From positions 1 to 6,809 of the forward strand of contig JAHJSF010000171.1 of the NCBI GenBank assembly GCA_018830405.1: a stretch of DNA of 6,809 nucleotides. Reading direction: 5' to 3'. This DNA comes from Nitrospinota bacterium. Lineage in GTDB: Bacteria; Nitrospinota; Nitrospinia; UBA9942; JAHJSF01. A model generated the notes under the pieces. The model was given only the letters and a program-made list of their open reading frames with translations. It ran no database searches and was not told the origin of the DNA. Below are positions 1 to 6,477 of this stretch, piece by piece (within the stretch, counting starts at the first letter, position 1; each line of letters begins with the position of its first letter). The translations under genes were made by a program, and so were the position numbers.

Positions 1-249
1 ACCGACTCATTCTGCGGATTCAAAGGATACCGAATTGAGGCACTATCAAAACTATCCCTAACGGAGCAGGGGTACGGGATGCCCCTGCAACTATGGATAC
101 AGGCCTGTAAAGAAAAACTTAAGGTAGCTGAAAAGGCAACCAAGAGGATATATTCAAATGTCGGACGAATATTCGGTGGGGAATTGGATGACCCTGAAAA
201 GAGGTTCATCTACTACAAAAAGATAATGGAGGTAGAAATACACAAATGA
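1..249 (+). CDS. Glycosyltransferase family 2 protein, C-terminal part (5' truncated by window edge)
   Basis: An open frame runs from base 1 to a TGA at 247-249 and gives 82 residues without a start, so the N-terminal catalytic part lies outside the window. The visible part begins TDSFCGFKGYR and continues with EQGYGMPLQLWIQ, then IYSNVGRIFGGELDDPEKR and a Tyr-Tyr. From family knowledge, this succession (D-S-x-C-G-F-K-x-Y-R, a G-Y-G-M-P-L-Q-x-W helix, then F-G-G-x-L-D-D-P) is the end of a dolichol-phosphate-mannose-synthase-like GT2 domain that moves a sugar from a nucleotide sugar to an acceptor. No membrane segment is visible in this part, which suggests a cytosolic enzyme. Its TGA overlaps the ATG of the deacetylase gene by four bases (ATGA, 246-249), so the two are probably co-translated. 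Donor and acceptor cannot be inferred. Confidence 0.85.
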   Translation, partial: TDSFCGFKGYRIEALSKLSLTEQGYGMPLQLWIQACKEKLKVAEKATKRIYSNVGRIFGGELDDPEKRFIYYKKIMEVEIHK

Positions 250-929
250 ATATACTATGTGTAGGGGCTCACCCTGACGATGTTGATATCGGTATGGGGG
301 GAACAATATTAACCCTTATTGACCAGGGGCACAAAGTTTCTATTCTTGATCTAACCGATGGGGAACCAACCCCAAAAGGAACACACGAAAAGAGGATGGC
401 CGAAAGCGCCGCCTCATCAGAGATTTTGGGGATAGCCGAGAGGATAACCTTAGACCTGGAAAACCGTTTTCTGGAAGATAGCAAAGAGGCCAGAAGGAAG
501 GTAGCCGCCGTTATAAGAAGGATAAAACCGGAAATATTGTTCATTCCTTACTGGGTAGATGCACACCCGGATCATATAGCCGGCTCCAATCTGGCGGTGG
601 CCGCGGCCTTCACCGCCAAACTAACAAAAACAGATATCGAAGGTGAACCATTCCAGCCTAAAAAGGTCTTCTCCTATTTCTCATCCCACCTCCGCCTTAT
701 CATTAAACCATCATTCATAATGGACATAAGCAAGTTTATGGATAAGAAGTTAGAGGCCCTTACCTGCTACAAGTCGCAGTTCGCCGAGCAGGATAGGGAA
801 GAATATCTTAAAGATATGATAAGGAGCAACGGACATCATTGGGGGGCGATGATAAAAAGGGAATATGGGGAAGCATTCGCCTGCCGTGAAGAGGTAGGGC
901 TAAAGGGGATAGAGGACTTAGTAATTTGA
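246..929 (+). CDS. LmbE/PIG-L family zinc-dependent N-deacetylase, BshB1-like
   Basis: The 227-residue product carries the family signature AHPDD at residues 8-12 and HPDH at 107-110. By analogy with BshB and MshB, His9, Asp12 and His110 would bind zinc, Asp11 would be the general base and His107 would assist. The stretch DLTDGEPTPKGT (35-46), the following Arg-x-x-E-A-A-like helix and the VxDISxFMDKKxEAxxxYxSQF-like segment (159-179) resemble BshB1, which deacetylates GlcNAc-malate in bacillithiol synthesis. Length is normal for the family and there is no signal peptide, so it should act in the cytosol on an N-acetylated sugar. The ATG overlaps the upstream glycosyltransferase stop; GGAGG at 228-232 lies a rather long 13 bases before it. 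Its own TGA overlaps the TTG start of the next gene. Family assignment is secure. The exact substrate is inference, because LmbE members act on many N-acetyl-glucosaminyl compounds. Confidence 0.92.
   Translation: MNILCVGAHPDDVDIGMGGTILTLIDQGHKVSILDLTDGEPTPKGTHEKRMAESAASSEILGIAERITLDLENRFLEDSKEARRKVAAVIRRIKPEILFIPYWVDAHPDHIAGSNLAVAAAFTAKLTKTDIEGEPFQPKKVFSYFSSHLRLIIKPSFIMDISKFMDKKLEALTCYKSQFAEQDREEYLKDMIRSNGHHWGAMIKREYGEAFACREEVGLKGIEDLVI
911..928 (+). promoter_or_regulatory. Ribosome binding site and TTG start of the BshC-like gene
   Basis: AGAGGA (911-916) lies nine bases upstream of TTG (926-928). The TTG shares three of its bases with the stop of the deacetylase (TTGA, 926-929). There is no in-frame ATG before residue 103, so this site decides the start. 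The arrangement indicates translational coupling. Confidence 0.6.
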
Positions 930-2467
930 AAAATGGGAAGATAGAGATTCCTGACCAAGATGGGGGGATTTTAACAATCCCAGATCCTGAGGATATCCCC
1001 CAATACATCGAAACCAACCGGAATATATTCTCCGCATGGAGCTTCAACATCGGCGGAATAGACGCCAAATCATTTAGAGAAATAGCCAGAGGAGAGGCGT
1101 CTGAACTCTCCAATAAATATACAGCCAACTTTTCCCCGAAACCCCACATCATAGACAAAGATACTATAGTTATAGAAACGGGTCATCAGCCCGGCCTCTC
1201 CCACCCCGGAATTATCGCCAAATACCTTTTGATGAATAATCTGATTAATAAGAATAATTATGCTGGGCTTAATTTAATCGTCGATTCTGATAACTTTCAA
1301 GACATTAGCCTATATATCCCAAACAGAGAAAAATCTACTATTCCCCTCCTATCGCTCAACAAACCTATCCCCTTCGAAACCGCCGAAGAGATAGATGCGG
1401 ACAGGGTTAACCAATTCCTCGATGATATAGATGAATCCCTTTCCCCCCCTTATCTGAATACGGTTAGGAATAATTTTGTGCAATGGAAAAAAGAGGTTAA
1501 GAATAATCCTTCCCAATCTTCAAACCTGACAACCCTTCTTACCCATCTCCGCCGAATCTTTACAAGGGGGAAATTAGGAGAACTCCCCATATCACTACAA
1601 TCGGAAGGAACCACCTTCCTAACCTTCTTCCTCCATATTGTCCAAGATGCCGAGCGTTTCACCCAAATATACAACAGTCAACTCTCACTCTACCGTAAGG
1701 TCAACAAAGTAAGGGATAAGGCCCACCCCTTCCCCAATCTGAAGATTGATAATTGCATCGAACTCCCCTTCTGGCATATAACCGGCGATGAGAGAAGGAG
1801 GATAGCTGTAAAGATAGATAGGGAGAAGATATATCTAAAAAGTAACGGCCAAGAATTGGCGGTTATCGCGGCAGATAATATAGGCCGGGGGATAGAGATA
1901 CTCAGGGAAAAGGGGCTAAAGATAAGGCCAAACGGTCTGACCACAACCATGTTTAACCGGATGTTCATAGCCAATCTCTTCGTCCACGGAATCGGCGGGG
2001 CCAAATATGACCTCGCAACAGATGCCGTCATTAGAGAATTTTTCGCTGCCGAACCTCCCCTCTACGCAACCATCACCATGACCAAATACCCTGATGTCAC
2101 AGTTGGAGATAAATCTGAGAGGATAAAGCTGCTGGAGGATAAACTGCGCAACATCGAGTATAACCCCGACCGTTACGTAGATAATAAAAACCCCTTAGTG
2201 ACCGATAAGAAAAGGCTTTTGCTCGAGATCACCAAACAACATGCCGACAAAAAATCGATAGGGGGAAGGATATCAGCCATTAACCAGGAGTTGCTCTCCA
2301 TCCTAAGGGAGGAGATTAAAGATGATAGAATGGAACTGGATAAACTTAAGGAAGAGATGGAAATAAACTCTTACATCAGAAGGAGAGACTATCCCTACTT
2401 CTTCTTTAAGGCCGCAAAACTCAACGAATTGATTGTTAATAATATACAGAGTGGCAGAACAAAGTAG
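926..2467 (+). CDS. BshC-like protein of unknown function (candidate ligase acting after the deacetylase)
   Basis: This 513-residue protein starts at TTG (926-928). The start overlaps the deacetylase TGA, and AGAGGA at 911-916 stands nine bases before it. The first internal Met is residue 103, so a later ATG start would delete conserved parts. Visible landmarks are TGHQPG (85-90) followed by HPGIIAKY (93-100), NLIVDSDNFQD (116-126), a central helical region, RPNGLTTTMFNR (334-345), and VHGIGGAKYDLATDAVI (353-369) followed by FFAAEPP. A charged, probably coiled-coil stretch covers about 425-480, and the end has RRRDYPYFFF (485-494). The TGHQPG block recalls the T-G-x-Q-x-G-L block of BshC, the putative bacillithiol cysteine ligase, and the late coiled coil also fits BshC. 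The rest differs strongly. I recall similar uncharacterised proteins from planctomycetes, but could not check this. No signal peptide or membrane segment is seen. Position after a BshB1-like deacetylase suggests it processes the freed amine; that is inference. Confidence 0.7.
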   Translation: MKNGKIEIPDQDGGILTIPDPEDIPQYIETNRNIFSAWSFNIGGIDAKSFREIARGEASELSNKYTANFSPKPHIIDKDTIVIETGHQPGLSHPGIIAKYLLMNNLINKNNYAGLNLIVDSDNFQDISLYIPNREKSTIPLLSLNKPIPFETAEEIDADRVNQFLDDIDESLSPPYLNTVRNNFVQWKKEVKNNPSQSSNLTTLLTHLRRIFTRGKLGELPISLQSEGTTFLTFFLHIVQDAERFTQIYNSQLSLYRKVNKVRDKAHPFPNLKIDNCIELPFWHITGDERRRIAVKIDREKIYLKSNGQELAVIAADNIGRGIEILREKGLKIRPNGLTTTMFNRMFIANLFVHGIGGAKYDLATDAVIREFFAAEPPLYATITMTKYPDVTVGDKSERIKLLEDKLRNIEYNPDRYVDNKNPLVTDKKRLLLEITKQHADKKSIGGRISAINQELLSILREEIKDDRMELDKLKEEMEINSYIRRRDYPYFFFKAAKLNELIVNNIQSGRTK

Positions 2468-3178: not shown

Positions 3179-4558
3179 CTAGCCTATCCGGTTATACTCC
3201 CTGACCCGCAGCCCAACCCCCACCCCCTCAGCAATCTTACGGCATCTTTCAATATCAACCTTCCCCGGAATGGCCACAACTGTTAACACCACGGAAGGGA
3301 TATATTTTTTGGCCTCCTCGGCAAAATCAACAATCTCCTCAAAAATTCCCCCGTCATAGACAGGCTGACACAACTCCATATACCCCTCTTCATTATCCGA
3401 ATCGAGCGATATCGAAACCGCATCTACAAGCCCTTTAAGCTCGGGAAGAATATTACGGCGGTTGATAATATTCCCATGCCCGTTGGTATTAATCCTAACC
3501 TTACCCCCCTTCTCCTTGACGTAGGCAGCTACCTTCTTCATGGTCTCCAGCCTCAGGGTCGGTTCCCCGAAACCGCAAAAGACAACCTGGTCGAAAGATT
3601 TAGGGTCTCCCATTTTAGCAATAATCGCCTCGGCTGAGGGCTCGCTATGCAGTTTAAGGTTATACCCCTCCACCTCAGGCCTGACCTCTCTGGGGCAGAA
3701 GATACAATCGTTGGTACATCTATTGGTCAGGTTTACATAGAGGGAGTTTCTAATCTTGTAGACAATGGTATCCTCTTCACCAAAATCCTTTATCCCAAAG
3801 AGTTTGGCCACATTGGTAAATAACTGTCTCGAAAGCTCCTCTTCCGAAATACCCTTTATTTCGGCCATCTTCTCGGCCACAAAGCGGACATAGGAAGGTT
3901 CGTTCCTCTCCCCCCTAAACTGCTGCGGCGCAAGATAGGGGCAATCGGTCTCAATCAAAAGCCTATCGAGAGGAATCTCCTTAACAATCTCCCGCAACTC
4001 CTCCGCCTTCGGGTAGGTGATAACTCCGGTAAAGGAGATGAAGAAGCCCGTCTCCAGACACCTCCTGGCCATATCAAGATCCCCCGAATAGCAGTGGATA
4101 ACCCCCCCTACCCTCTCGGCCCCCTCCTCTTCGAGAATCTTCAGGGTATCCTCCTTGGCATCCCTCGTATGGACTATAAGAGGCTTATTAATCTCTATGG
4201 CCAATCTTATCTGCCTTCTAAAGGCCTCCTGCTGAACATCAGCCGGAGAATAATTCTTAAAATAATCAAGCCCCGTCTCCCCCACCGCAATAACCTTGTC
4301 GCGTGAAAGGAGCTCCCTAAGGGTATCGTAATCCGACTCAAACAGCCCCTCCGCATTATGGGGGTGAGCCCCCACGGTGGCGTATATCTGCGGATAGCTT
4401 TCAGCCAAGACAACCGACCTCATACTCCCCTCAACATCCGTCCCAACATTTATAATGGCAGTTATCCCGCTATTCGTTGAGCGTTCTATCACCTCATCCC
4501 TATCGATATCAAACTGCTCCATATCGAGGTGAGCGTGGGTATCAATAAAAGGAATCAT
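3179..4558 (-). CDS. Fusion of TatD family metal-dependent hydrolase and TatD-associated radical SAM domain
   Basis: The 459-residue protein has two domains. Residues 1-256 are a TatD (YcfH-type) TIM-barrel nuclease: THAHLD (7-12, His8 and His10), GETGLD (93-98, Glu94), IVHTRDA (128-134, His130), IHCYSG (154-159, His155) and ETDCPYLAP (203-211, Asp205) supply the two-metal site. Members act as Mg-dependent 3'-5' DNA exonucleases or related hydrolases. Residues about 265-459 are a short radical SAM domain: CTNDCIFC (281-288) gives the Cys-x3-Cys-x2-Cys set for the 4Fe-4S cluster, GFGEPT (329-334) is the SAM-contacting GE motif, and RINTNGHG (355-362) and VSISLDS (381-387) mark later strands. 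This matches the TatD-linked radical SAM family, which occurs fused to or beside TatD; its reaction is unknown. The ATG overlaps the dsbD stop by four bases, with GGAGAGG ten bases upstream inside dsbD, so it is coupled to dsbD. Both domains keep their key residues. Confidence 0.93.
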   Translation of the reverse strand: MIPFIDTHAHLDMEQFDIDRDEVIERSTNSGITAIINVGTDVEGSMRSVVLAESYPQIYATVGAHPHNAEGLFESDYDTLRELLSRDKVIAVGETGLDYFKNYSPADVQQEAFRRQIRLAIEINKPLIVHTRDAKEDTLKILEEEGAERVGGVIHCYSGDLDMARRCLETGFFISFTGVITYPKAEELREIVKEIPLDRLLIETDCPYLAPQQFRGERNEPSYVRFVAEKMAEIKGISEEELSRQLFTNVAKLFGIKDFGEEDTIVYKIRNSLYVNLTNRCTNDCIFCPREVRPEVEGYNLKLHSEPSAEAIIAKMGDPKSFDQVVFCGFGEPTLRLETMKKVAAYVKEKGGKVRINTNGHGNIINRRNILPELKGLVDAVSISLDSDNEEGYMELCQPVYDGGIFEEIVDFAEEAKKYIPSVVLTVVAIPGKVDIERCRKIAEGVGVGLRVREYNRIG

Positions 4559-6477
4559 TTCTTTAATGCCTCTCCGATAACCTTATCAAAGGTATCAACC
4601 GCATCATACTCCGTCCCCTCCCAGTAGAGGCTTCCATCGTAACTAAAAAGGGCAAAATAGGGGAGCCCCACCTGCAGCTCGGCATGGTCAGGATTCTTCT
4701 TAAAGGTTTCGAAGGCGGGATCGGTATCGTATATCTTGACCAAGACAACCTTTTTCAAGGCGGCATTAAGTTTGGCATCGCTGGCGGCCAGTTTCCCAAA
4801 CTCCAGACAATTGGCGCACCAATCGGCGTAAAAGTCGACAAAGATAGGTTTCTTCTCCCTAAGGGCAACCCACTTGGCCTCATCAAAATCCCTGTGCCAG
4901 GCAAGTCCCCCCTCCCCCTCTTCAATAAGGGTTTGATCCGCTCCGACTATAGGGACGTAGATAGCAGTCCCCCGCCTCCTGTAACCCCCATAGACAACCA
5001 TCATCCCTATGGCCAGAATGATAAAGGCCAGATAACTCCTCGGCCTGCATTTCTCGCGGTAGGTAATCCCAAATCTAAGGAGAAGGGAAAAAACAACAAT
5101 CACCAATAGGATAAGATATCCGGCCTGGTGTTTAACCCCGGCCAGGTTCATCCATTTCAGGTAATAGGTTCCGGAAATATAAAGTATTACTATACCCAAA
5201 AGATACTTAACATAAACCATCCACCCCCCCGCTTTGGGGATGTGGTGACTAAAGAAACCAACCAAGAGGAATGGAAGCCCAATCCCCAAACCGAACCCGG
5301 CCATCAAAATAGCCCCCGAAAGAGCTATATAGGATGATTGCCAAACGGAGAGTGTCCCCCCCAAACCGGCAACAATCATATTCGCCTCGGCAATCCTCTC
5401 GGCCACCCGAAGAAGGAGGGTAAAGACAACCGGGGCCACACAGGGGGAGATAATAATACCGGCTCCCATCCCCATAAATAGCGTCCCCGTTAATCCCCCC
5501 CTATGCTGAAATATCTTCCCAAAAGGTGTTTTGGAAAGTCTCTCCATAGAAGGAAAAACGAAGACATCAAACATCGAAAAGGCGAAGATAAAAAAGAGTC
5601 CTGCTAAAAGCAGGTTGGCCGTTGCGGTTCTCATCAGCAGGCTAAAGGCACCGCCGGTCATTCCGGCGATATAGCCGAGAAGGGCGTAGCTTAAAACAAT
5701 CCCCAAAAAATAGGCAATGGTATGTATATGAATCTTTTCATGCCCCTTATCCCTCTTCAGAAGGATAGCCGAGGTTATCGGAATCATCGGGTATACACAG
5801 GGGGTGGCGGCCGAGAAGATACCGGCCAACACCATCAGGAGAAAGGCGTATAAGAAATTCTTTGAATGCCTGTCGTAAAGATTATTTATCCTCTCCCCAA
5901 ACCCATTTGCCGAATAGCCGCCCCCGGTATCGGAAGAAATAGTATATTGCGAGGAAAGATTAATCTCCCCAAACATGGGGGGATAACATATCTTGGTCAA
6001 ATCGTTGCAGGTCTGATATTTAACCTTAACGGTTCTCGGAATCCTCTTCTTAGCCCCACCTCTTTTGACAATTGAAAAAGTAAAGTTCCCCCCGCCTCTC
6101 AAGACATTAACCCCGCTGGCTTCATCATAGCTCCCCACTGGTTTATCAATAGGGATAACATCGTAACCGGCTGAATCAAAACCTGAGAAATCGAAGGATA
6201 AGGGGATAAAAAGCCCCTCACGCCCGCTATCAAGATAGACATGGCTATTTAGCGGAACAGATATATGAATAGATAACAGCCCCTTCGCCCCCTTCTCAGG
6301 GAGACCAAAGGAATTTACCGAAAAAGATGCGGCCGGAATCTCCTCCCCCGCCTGAACCAGGGAGAGTATAGTGGTAGATTCTACATCCGCTTGGGGAGGT
6401 AAAAACAATATGGGTAAAAACAGGAAGAGGAGAAACCAAAATTTGGCTACCCCCTTCAAAAACCTCTCTAATTTCAT
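4555..6477 (-). CDS. dsbD: Thiol:disulfide interchange protein DsbD (cytochrome c biogenesis transmembrane reductase)
   Basis: The 640-residue protein has the full three-domain DsbD plan and should carry electrons from cytosolic thioredoxin across the inner membrane to periplasmic thiol proteins. A signal peptide occupies about residues 1-30 (basic start, hydrophobic 13-27, likely cut after the Ala at 30). The periplasmic alpha domain (about 31-185) ends with TCNDLTKICYPP, giving the Cys157/Cys164 pair. The beta domain (about 205-500) has eight or so membrane segments with Cys227 in ATPCVYPMIPIT and Cys346 in ISPCVAP. The gamma domain (about 525-640) is a thioredoxin fold with DWCANC (552-557; Cys554, Cys557) and a cis-Pro in GLPYFAL (604-610). 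All six catalytic cysteines are present. The alpha pair is Cys-x6-Cys, one residue wider than the Cys-x5-Cys of E. coli. The ATG has no clear SD; the leader from the predicted promoter is about 20 bases. It is first in a two-gene operon with the TatD-radical SAM gene. Confidence 0.95.
   Translation of the reverse strand: MKLERFLKGVAKFWFLLFLFLPILFLPPQADVESTTILSLVQAGEEIPAASFSVNSFGLPEKGAKGLLSIHISVPLNSHVYLDSGREGLFIPLSFDFSGFDSAGYDVIPIDKPVGSYDEASGVNVLRGGGNFTFSIVKRGGAKKRIPRTVKVKYQTCNDLTKICYPPMFGEINLSSQYTISSDTGGGYSANGFGERINNLYDRHSKNFLYAFLLMVLAGIFSAATPCVYPMIPITSAILLKRDKGHEKIHIHTIAYFLGIVLSYALLGYIAGMTGGAFSLLMRTATANLLLAGLFFIFAFSMFDVFVFPSMERLSKTPFGKIFQHRGGLTGTLFMGMGAGIIISPCVAPVVFTLLLRVAERIAEANMIVAGLGGTLSVWQSSYIALSGAILMAGFGLGIGLPFLLVGFFSHHIPKAGGWMVYVKYLLGIVILYISGTYYLKWMNLAGVKHQAGYLILLVIVVFSLLLRFGITYREKCRPRSYLAFIILAIGMMVVYGGYRRRGTAIYVPIVGADQTLIEEGEGGLAWHRDFDEAKWVALREKKPIFVDFYADWCANCLEFGKLAASDAKLNAALKKVVLVKIYDTDPAFETFKKNPDHAELQVGLPYFALFSYDGSLYWEGTEYDAVDTFDKVIGEALKK
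4569..4575 (-). promoter_or_regulatory. Shine-Dalgarno site of the TatD-radical SAM gene, inside dsbD
   Basis: On the minus strand GGAGAGG lies ten bases before the ATG (4558-4556), within the last codons of dsbD. Together with the ATGA stop/start overlap (4555-4558) it fixes the start and implies translational coupling. Confidence 0.65.

Follow-up and report, generated by a model that had tools for sequence, protein, structure and literature searches.

The GT2-LmbE-ORF513 locus

The window, by which we mean the whole 6,809-nucleotide stretch of DNA that was analysed, is contig C163 of a Nitrospinota genome assembly (1.42 Mb, 87% complete). Three open frames on its + strand encode, in this order, the end of a GT2 glycosyltransferase, an LmbE-type deacetylase and a 513-residue protein, ORF513, which starts with a TTG codon on that strand (Table 1). 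Each frame overlaps the next by 4 bases, which confirms the layout given in a first-pass annotation of this DNA. An FxsA gene follows 119 bases past ORF513, and the genes after FxsA are on the opposite strand.

The GT2 gene is truncated by the start of the contig. Contig C58 shares 141 bases identical to the window start and supplies, in frame, the 151 N-terminal codons that the window lacks, giving a complete GT2 of 233 residues. This overlap, together with the existence of full-length GT2 homologues, argues against an artefact at the window start.

Table 1. Features of the cassette, with positions in the window and the evidence for each
Feature	Position	Strand	Evidence
C-terminal part of GT2, soluble, DPMS/ArnC-like	1..249	+	Open frame; C58 overlap; single copy in 47/47 genomes; DPMS/ArnC/GpgS fold
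Predicted BshB1-like LmbE/PIG-L zinc N-deacetylase, 227 aa	246..929	+	TIGR04001 score; closest PDB chains
AHPDD motif of deacetylase (presumed zinc/catalytic)	267..281	+	Conserved in alignment of relatives; role assumed
HPDH motif of deacetylase (presumed zinc/catalytic)	564..575	+	Conserved in alignment of relatives; role assumed
ORF513, BshC-fold putative amino-acid (cysteine) ligase	926..2467	+	AlphaFold pLDDT 95; Foldseek 4wbd; Z 25.2
T-G-H-Q-P-x-L-x-H-P-G block, ORF513 residues 85-95	1178..1210	+	57-sequence conservation; hhalign register
H-G-I-G-G-A-K-Y-D motif, residues 354-362, ORF513 family signature	1985..2011	+	57-sequence conservation
C-terminal helical hairpin of ORF513, residues about 442-484	2249..2377	+	DSSP of model: H442-459, H461-484

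Two further genes of the window were identified on the - strand. At 3179-4558, a TatD nuclease and a radical SAM domain (TIGR04038, TatD-associated radical SAM) are fused in a single frame of 459 residues. This frame overlaps by 4 bases a gene at 4555-6477, whose DsbD-like product is a membrane protein containing a thioredoxin domain; this thiol-redox gene lies near the cassette on the opposite strand.

The LmbE deacetylase

The LmbE protein matches the Pfam PIG-L family and the NCBIfam BshB1 equivalog model TIGR04001 (213.4 bits; cut-off 182.5), in keeping with its earlier description as a BshB1-like N-deacetylase, and it is the sole TIGR04001 match in its own genome. The closest PDB chains are TT1542, LmbE-related protein and GlcNAc-malate deacetylase 1 (N-acetyl-glucosaminyl L-malate deacetylase). 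It contains both AHPDD and HPDH, which we take to be the zinc and catalytic motifs of the LmbE/PIG-L family. A role as a BshB1-like zinc deacetylase that frees a sugar amine is therefore a prediction, well supported by family membership; activity on GlcNAc-malate would follow only by analogy.

Sequence and fold of ORF513

The relationship of ORF513 to BshC is not visible to ordinary sequence searches. Pfam and NCBIfam models give no BshC match for ORF513, and a search of its own genome with the BshC model PF10079 finds nothing even when E values as high as 10 are allowed. BshC is also absent among the Pfam families listed for 57 members of the ORF513 family (the first 25 of 38 families). Against PDB sequences, neither phmmer with ORF513 alone nor hmmsearch with the 57-row family profile retrieves BshC, so that the link to BshC is one of fold, with weak support from hhalign.

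An AlphaFold model of ORF513, built from the 57-sequence alignment, is confident (pLDDT 95, pTM 0.91). Foldseek returns a single PDB match for it below 0.001, which is Bacillus subtilis BshC (4wbd, E 1.9e-12). A second aligner superposes the model on 4wbd over 459 residues with Z 25.2, 13% identity and an rmsd of 6.9, a value which suggests that the domains are probably set differently. Class I lysyl-tRNA synthetase (LysRS) comes next, with Z 19.6 and rmsd 3.2 for 273 aligned residues. The cysteine ligase MshC and cysteinyl-tRNA synthetase (CysRS) appear later, near Z 10. The predicted structure shows the BshC fold, with a Rossmann core, connecting peptides and a C-terminal coiled coil. The first-pass annotation had called the protein remotely BshC-like, with a late coiled coil; its fold is indeed that of BshC and not an unrelated one, and the coiled coil corresponds to the C-terminal helical hairpin of the model.

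Sequence evidence for the same link is weak. It comes from an hhalign comparison of family profiles, in which the BshC profile consisted of four sequences, namely 4wbd (verified against the PDB bar one residue) and three annotated bshC genes. ORF513 TGHQP falls in register with BshC TGQQA (E 0.0023 for one comparison, probability 12.5%), and ORF513 residues 85-95 align with BshC TGQQAG; the first-pass annotation had noted a TGHQPG block in common. Residues invariant in all 57 ORF513 sequences include G86, H87, P89, G95, K99, D120, N250, W283, R290, R345, H354, G355, G358, K360, Y361 and R487, while H93 is kept in 54 of the 57. We infer a resemblance between H93-x-G95 and HIGH, the signature of class I synthetases.

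The 57 sequences contain no invariant cysteines that could form a zinc site like that of CysRS or MshC. This, together with LysRS as the second best structural match, fits an alternative in which ORF513 is a BshC-fold ligase that attaches a non-cysteine amino acid, or some other acyl group, to a conjugate of glucosamine, yielding a non-thiol metabolite. We regard this alternative as improbable: BshC stands clearly ahead of all other matches, and BshC itself likewise lacks invariant cysteines (four aligned sequences).

The GT2 glycosyltransferase

The cassette glycosyltransferases form a tight subfamily, with 40-61% identity to the first row of their alignment, and only one of 28 members has a hydrophobic stretch suggestive of a membrane helix. 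By profile and fold, the closest PDB relatives are dolichyl-phosphate mannose synthase (DPMS) and ArnC, with GtrB and GpgS near. The GT-A fold of a homologue from locus L070 is related to that of DPMS and ArnC (Foldseek E 1.1e-13 to 9ep0 and 1.8e-13 to 9bhe); the enzyme is of GT2 and not GT4 type, as first annotated. The best NCBIfam match is PpgS, a polyprenyl-phospho-GalNAc synthase (NF058614), which aligns over nearly the full length.

The GT2 is closer to polyprenyl-phosphate transferases such as DPMS and ArnC than to any small-molecule transferase, and for this reason the main rival to a thiol pathway is a lipid-linked or envelope amino-sugar. Here GT2 would make a polyprenyl-phosphate-HexNAc, LmbE would deacetylate it, ORF513 would add an amino acid to the amine, and the unit would then be passed on to an envelope glycan. 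GpgS, however, an enzyme acting on 3-phosphoglycerate, is also close, and five relatives of the window GT2 score only 70-107 bits against the PpgS cut-off of 370. The cassette GT2 further differs from DPMS, ArnC and PpgS, whose fold and sequence profile it shares, in having no clear membrane helix and in its partner genes, whose BshB1 equivalog score and BshC fold point to soluble thiol precursors. No glycan-export or membrane-transferase family recurs beside the cassette among the families looked at. We consider the lipid-linked reading unlikely, though it cannot be set aside.

GT2 enzymes are as a rule inverting, and bacillithiol and mycothiol are alpha-linked. A beta-glycoside is therefore expected of this GT2, unlike either of those thiols. 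This general consideration bears on a further rival, that the cassette makes bacillithiol itself through non-orthologous enzymes, with GT2 using malate and ORF513 producing Cys-GlcN-Mal. The BshB1 score of LmbE and the fold of ORF513 would both suit such a route, whereas the expected linkage would not, and we hold it to be very doubtful.

Distribution and gene order

When GTDB species genomes were scanned with an alignment, 503 relatives of ORF513 came to light, most of them in Planctomycetota; a scan of genome contigs with the single ORF513 sequence had found none. The best 80 of the 503 are again mostly from Planctomycetota, including anammox bacteria, and also comprise Nitrospinota, Nitrospirae, Coriobacteriia and Bacillota records. 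Adjacency was counted in six frames, as a count based on open reading frames misses GT2 frames hidden under longer overlapping frames. By this count, GT2, LmbE and ORF513 are contiguous in 11 genomes of several phyla (the window's own, G004, G008 and those of L036, L045, L056, L065, L069, L070, L084 and L103), more than chance would explain. The trio is real, conserved and co-occurring. At 35 further loci, nearly all planctomycete, GT2 is directly beside ORF513 without LmbE, and BshB1 is located elsewhere in the genome. The association of ORF513 with LmbE/BshB1 and GT2, which the first-pass annotation had put forward as a check, thus holds across neighbourhoods or genomes.

One Nitrospinota genome, G003, keeps GT2 and LmbE (L168 4798-6350, -) with ORF513 absent from the cassette, which suggests either loss of ORF513 or use of the GT2-LmbE pair without the ligase. 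In two other Nitrospinota genomes, a multihaem cytochrome c554-like protein precedes ORF513 (L021 3249-4622, L022 5125-6477), and BshB1 and GT2 are elsewhere.

Co-occurrence with thiol pathway genes

Forty-seven ORF513-bearing genomes, which are not independent of each other, were compared. The GT2 subfamily is present in exactly one copy in all 47 (E below 1e-45), including 13 in which it is not beside ORF513 (G007, G011, G077, G078, G079, G082, G083, G086, G091, G092, G098, G100 and G108), and four Nitrospinota genomes that lack ORF513 yielded no copy of it. BshB1 passes its cut-off in 38 of the 47; some match to the BshB1 model occurs in 46, but LmbE paralogues are common. BshA (TIGR03999) is over cut-off in only two genomes and BshC in none. 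Almost all of the ORF513-bearing genomes examined lack canonical BshA and BshC, and GT2 and ORF513 therefore occur where these two are absent. The window's own genome, at its 87% completeness, has neither over cut-off, so that the canonical bshA or bshC that might have stood elsewhere was not encountered. Weak PF10079 matches in five genomes were taken as chance, the best being 19 bits and below cut-off, with internal stops in three of the five.

The reductase of bacillithiol disulfide, YpdA, reaches its cut-off in just one of the 47 genomes. Its failure to reach cut-off in the other 46 speaks against bacillithiol itself as the product, and also lends some support to a non-thiol product.

Within Nitrospinota (77 genomes), ORF513 is found in six genomes and BshB1 is over cut-off in six, with five in common (Fisher P 1.8e-6, uncorrected for relatedness); BshC is in none of the 77. 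Two genomes depart from this pattern: in G002 a contig end truncates ORF513, and G003 carries GT2-LmbE but lacks ORF513.

Neighbouring genes

At ten planctomycete loci (L055, L080, L082, L083, L086, L096, L097, L100, L105 and L106), a gene for an Eis-like GNAT acetyltransferase lies on the same strand within 250 bases downstream of ORF513, and it may be a fourth pathway gene in planctomycetes. These proteins give only weak matches to Eis-type models and none to the MshD model, and the window has no MshD. Four planctomycete loci encode an enzyme of the cystathionine gamma-synthase/lyase type, 54-55 bp upstream of GT2. An ATC-hydrolase-family gene overlaps ORF513 at L037, and a beta-eliminating lyase lies 8 bases downstream at L071. 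These neighbours are lineage-specific, and together they lean towards cysteine chemistry; the sulfur amino-acid enzymes among them, which adjoin several planctomycete loci, count against the addition of a group other than cysteine. Stand-alone planctomycete BshB1 loci have no common neighbour of clear meaning, and mutS or guaA beside anammox ORF513 genes was taken as uninformative.

A proposed pathway and its relation to known thiols

We propose that the cassette encodes a pathway parallel to those of bacillithiol and mycothiol, a reading that we judge somewhat likelier to be right than wrong, with the acceptor, the cysteine and the thiol function all inferred. The soluble GT2, replacing the GT4 enzyme BshA, would transfer an N-acetylhexosamine (probably GlcNAc, donated by UDP-GlcNAc) to an unidentified acceptor. 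The latter is probably a small acid or phosphate compound and cannot be named from sequence. The BshB1-like zinc deacetylase would then free the sugar amine, a step well grounded in family membership, and ORF513 would couple an amino acid to it; the BshC fold of this protein is seen in the model, and cysteine is inferred as the most likely substrate. In some planctomycetes, the amino acid may then be capped by the Eis-like GNAT encoded downstream, in the manner of MshD in the mycothiol pathway. The expected product would be a sugar-linked low-molecular-weight thiol distinct from bacillithiol.

This parallel pathway is supported by BshC as the sole PDB match of ORF513 below E 0.001, with MshC and CysRS among the next structures, by the LmbE score over the BshB1 cut-off, by the TGHQP/TGQQA register, by co-occurrence and, in some lineages, by the neighbouring genes. 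It is also supported by the status of Planctomycetes, as of 2018, as a major lineage without a documented or predicted low-molecular-weight thiol (PMC6282198). Counting against it are the likeness of GT2 to DPMS and ArnC, the scarcity of YpdA, the weak BshC sequence link, the G003 gene pair, the restriction of GNAT and PLP-enzyme neighbours to certain lineages, the lack of direct evidence for cysteine and the non-independence of the 47 genomes. The first-pass annotation had inferred a bacillithiol-like, non-canonical amino-sugar conjugate pathway, to be refuted by an unrelated ORF513 fold, by lack of co-occurrence with LmbE or by canonical bshA and bshC elsewhere in the genome; the inference is supported, and none of these refuters came true.

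The cassette shares with the bacillithiol pathway of B. subtilis (BshA-BshB1-BshC) a BshB1-equivalog deacetylase, a third enzyme of BshC fold and the order of steps. It differs in having GT2 in place of GT4 BshA, in an ORF513 that lies outside the BshC sequence family, and in the rarity of BshA and absence of BshC over cut-off in the genomes that bear it. With the actinomycete mycothiol pathway (MshA-MshB-MshC-MshD), it has in common a glycosyltransferase, a deacetylase, an aaRS-like ligase (for cysteine, as inferred here) and, in some planctomycetes, a GNAT following the cassette genes. In contrast, MshA belongs to GT4 and uses inositol phosphate, MshC is homologous to CysRS, and the cassette-side GNAT is Eis-like with no MshD model match. 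The steps of mycothiol synthesis, including MshD acetylation, have been laid out elsewhere (PMC4360819), and the same 2015 review notes that in vitro evidence for cysteine ligation by BshC was still lacking and that the mechanism was not known.

No description of a GT2-LmbE-ORF513 cassette or of a planctomycete thiol was found in the open literature (subscription papers and preprints were outside the scope of the search). The trio recurs in Planctomycetes and other bacteria without a predicted thiol of this kind, which makes it a testable candidate for the missing thiol, and a concrete and genetically testable one in cultured planctomycete species. It is possible, though we put this forward only tentatively and would sooner expect it to fail, that GT2, BshB1 and a new ligase of BshC fold together make a third glucosamine-based thiol family, and that this family provides the main low-molecular-weight thiol of Planctomycetota, including anammox bacteria, and of parts of other phyla without a known thiol. 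ORF513 also widens the BshC fold class, and the conserved H-x-G beside its TGHQP block may ease the study of ligation chemistry.

A separate arrangement was observed at one planctomycete locus, L146 (G107:C178:48000-62000), where a canonical BshA adjoins BshB1. A second BshB1 is elsewhere in this genome, which has the ORF513 set and no BshC.
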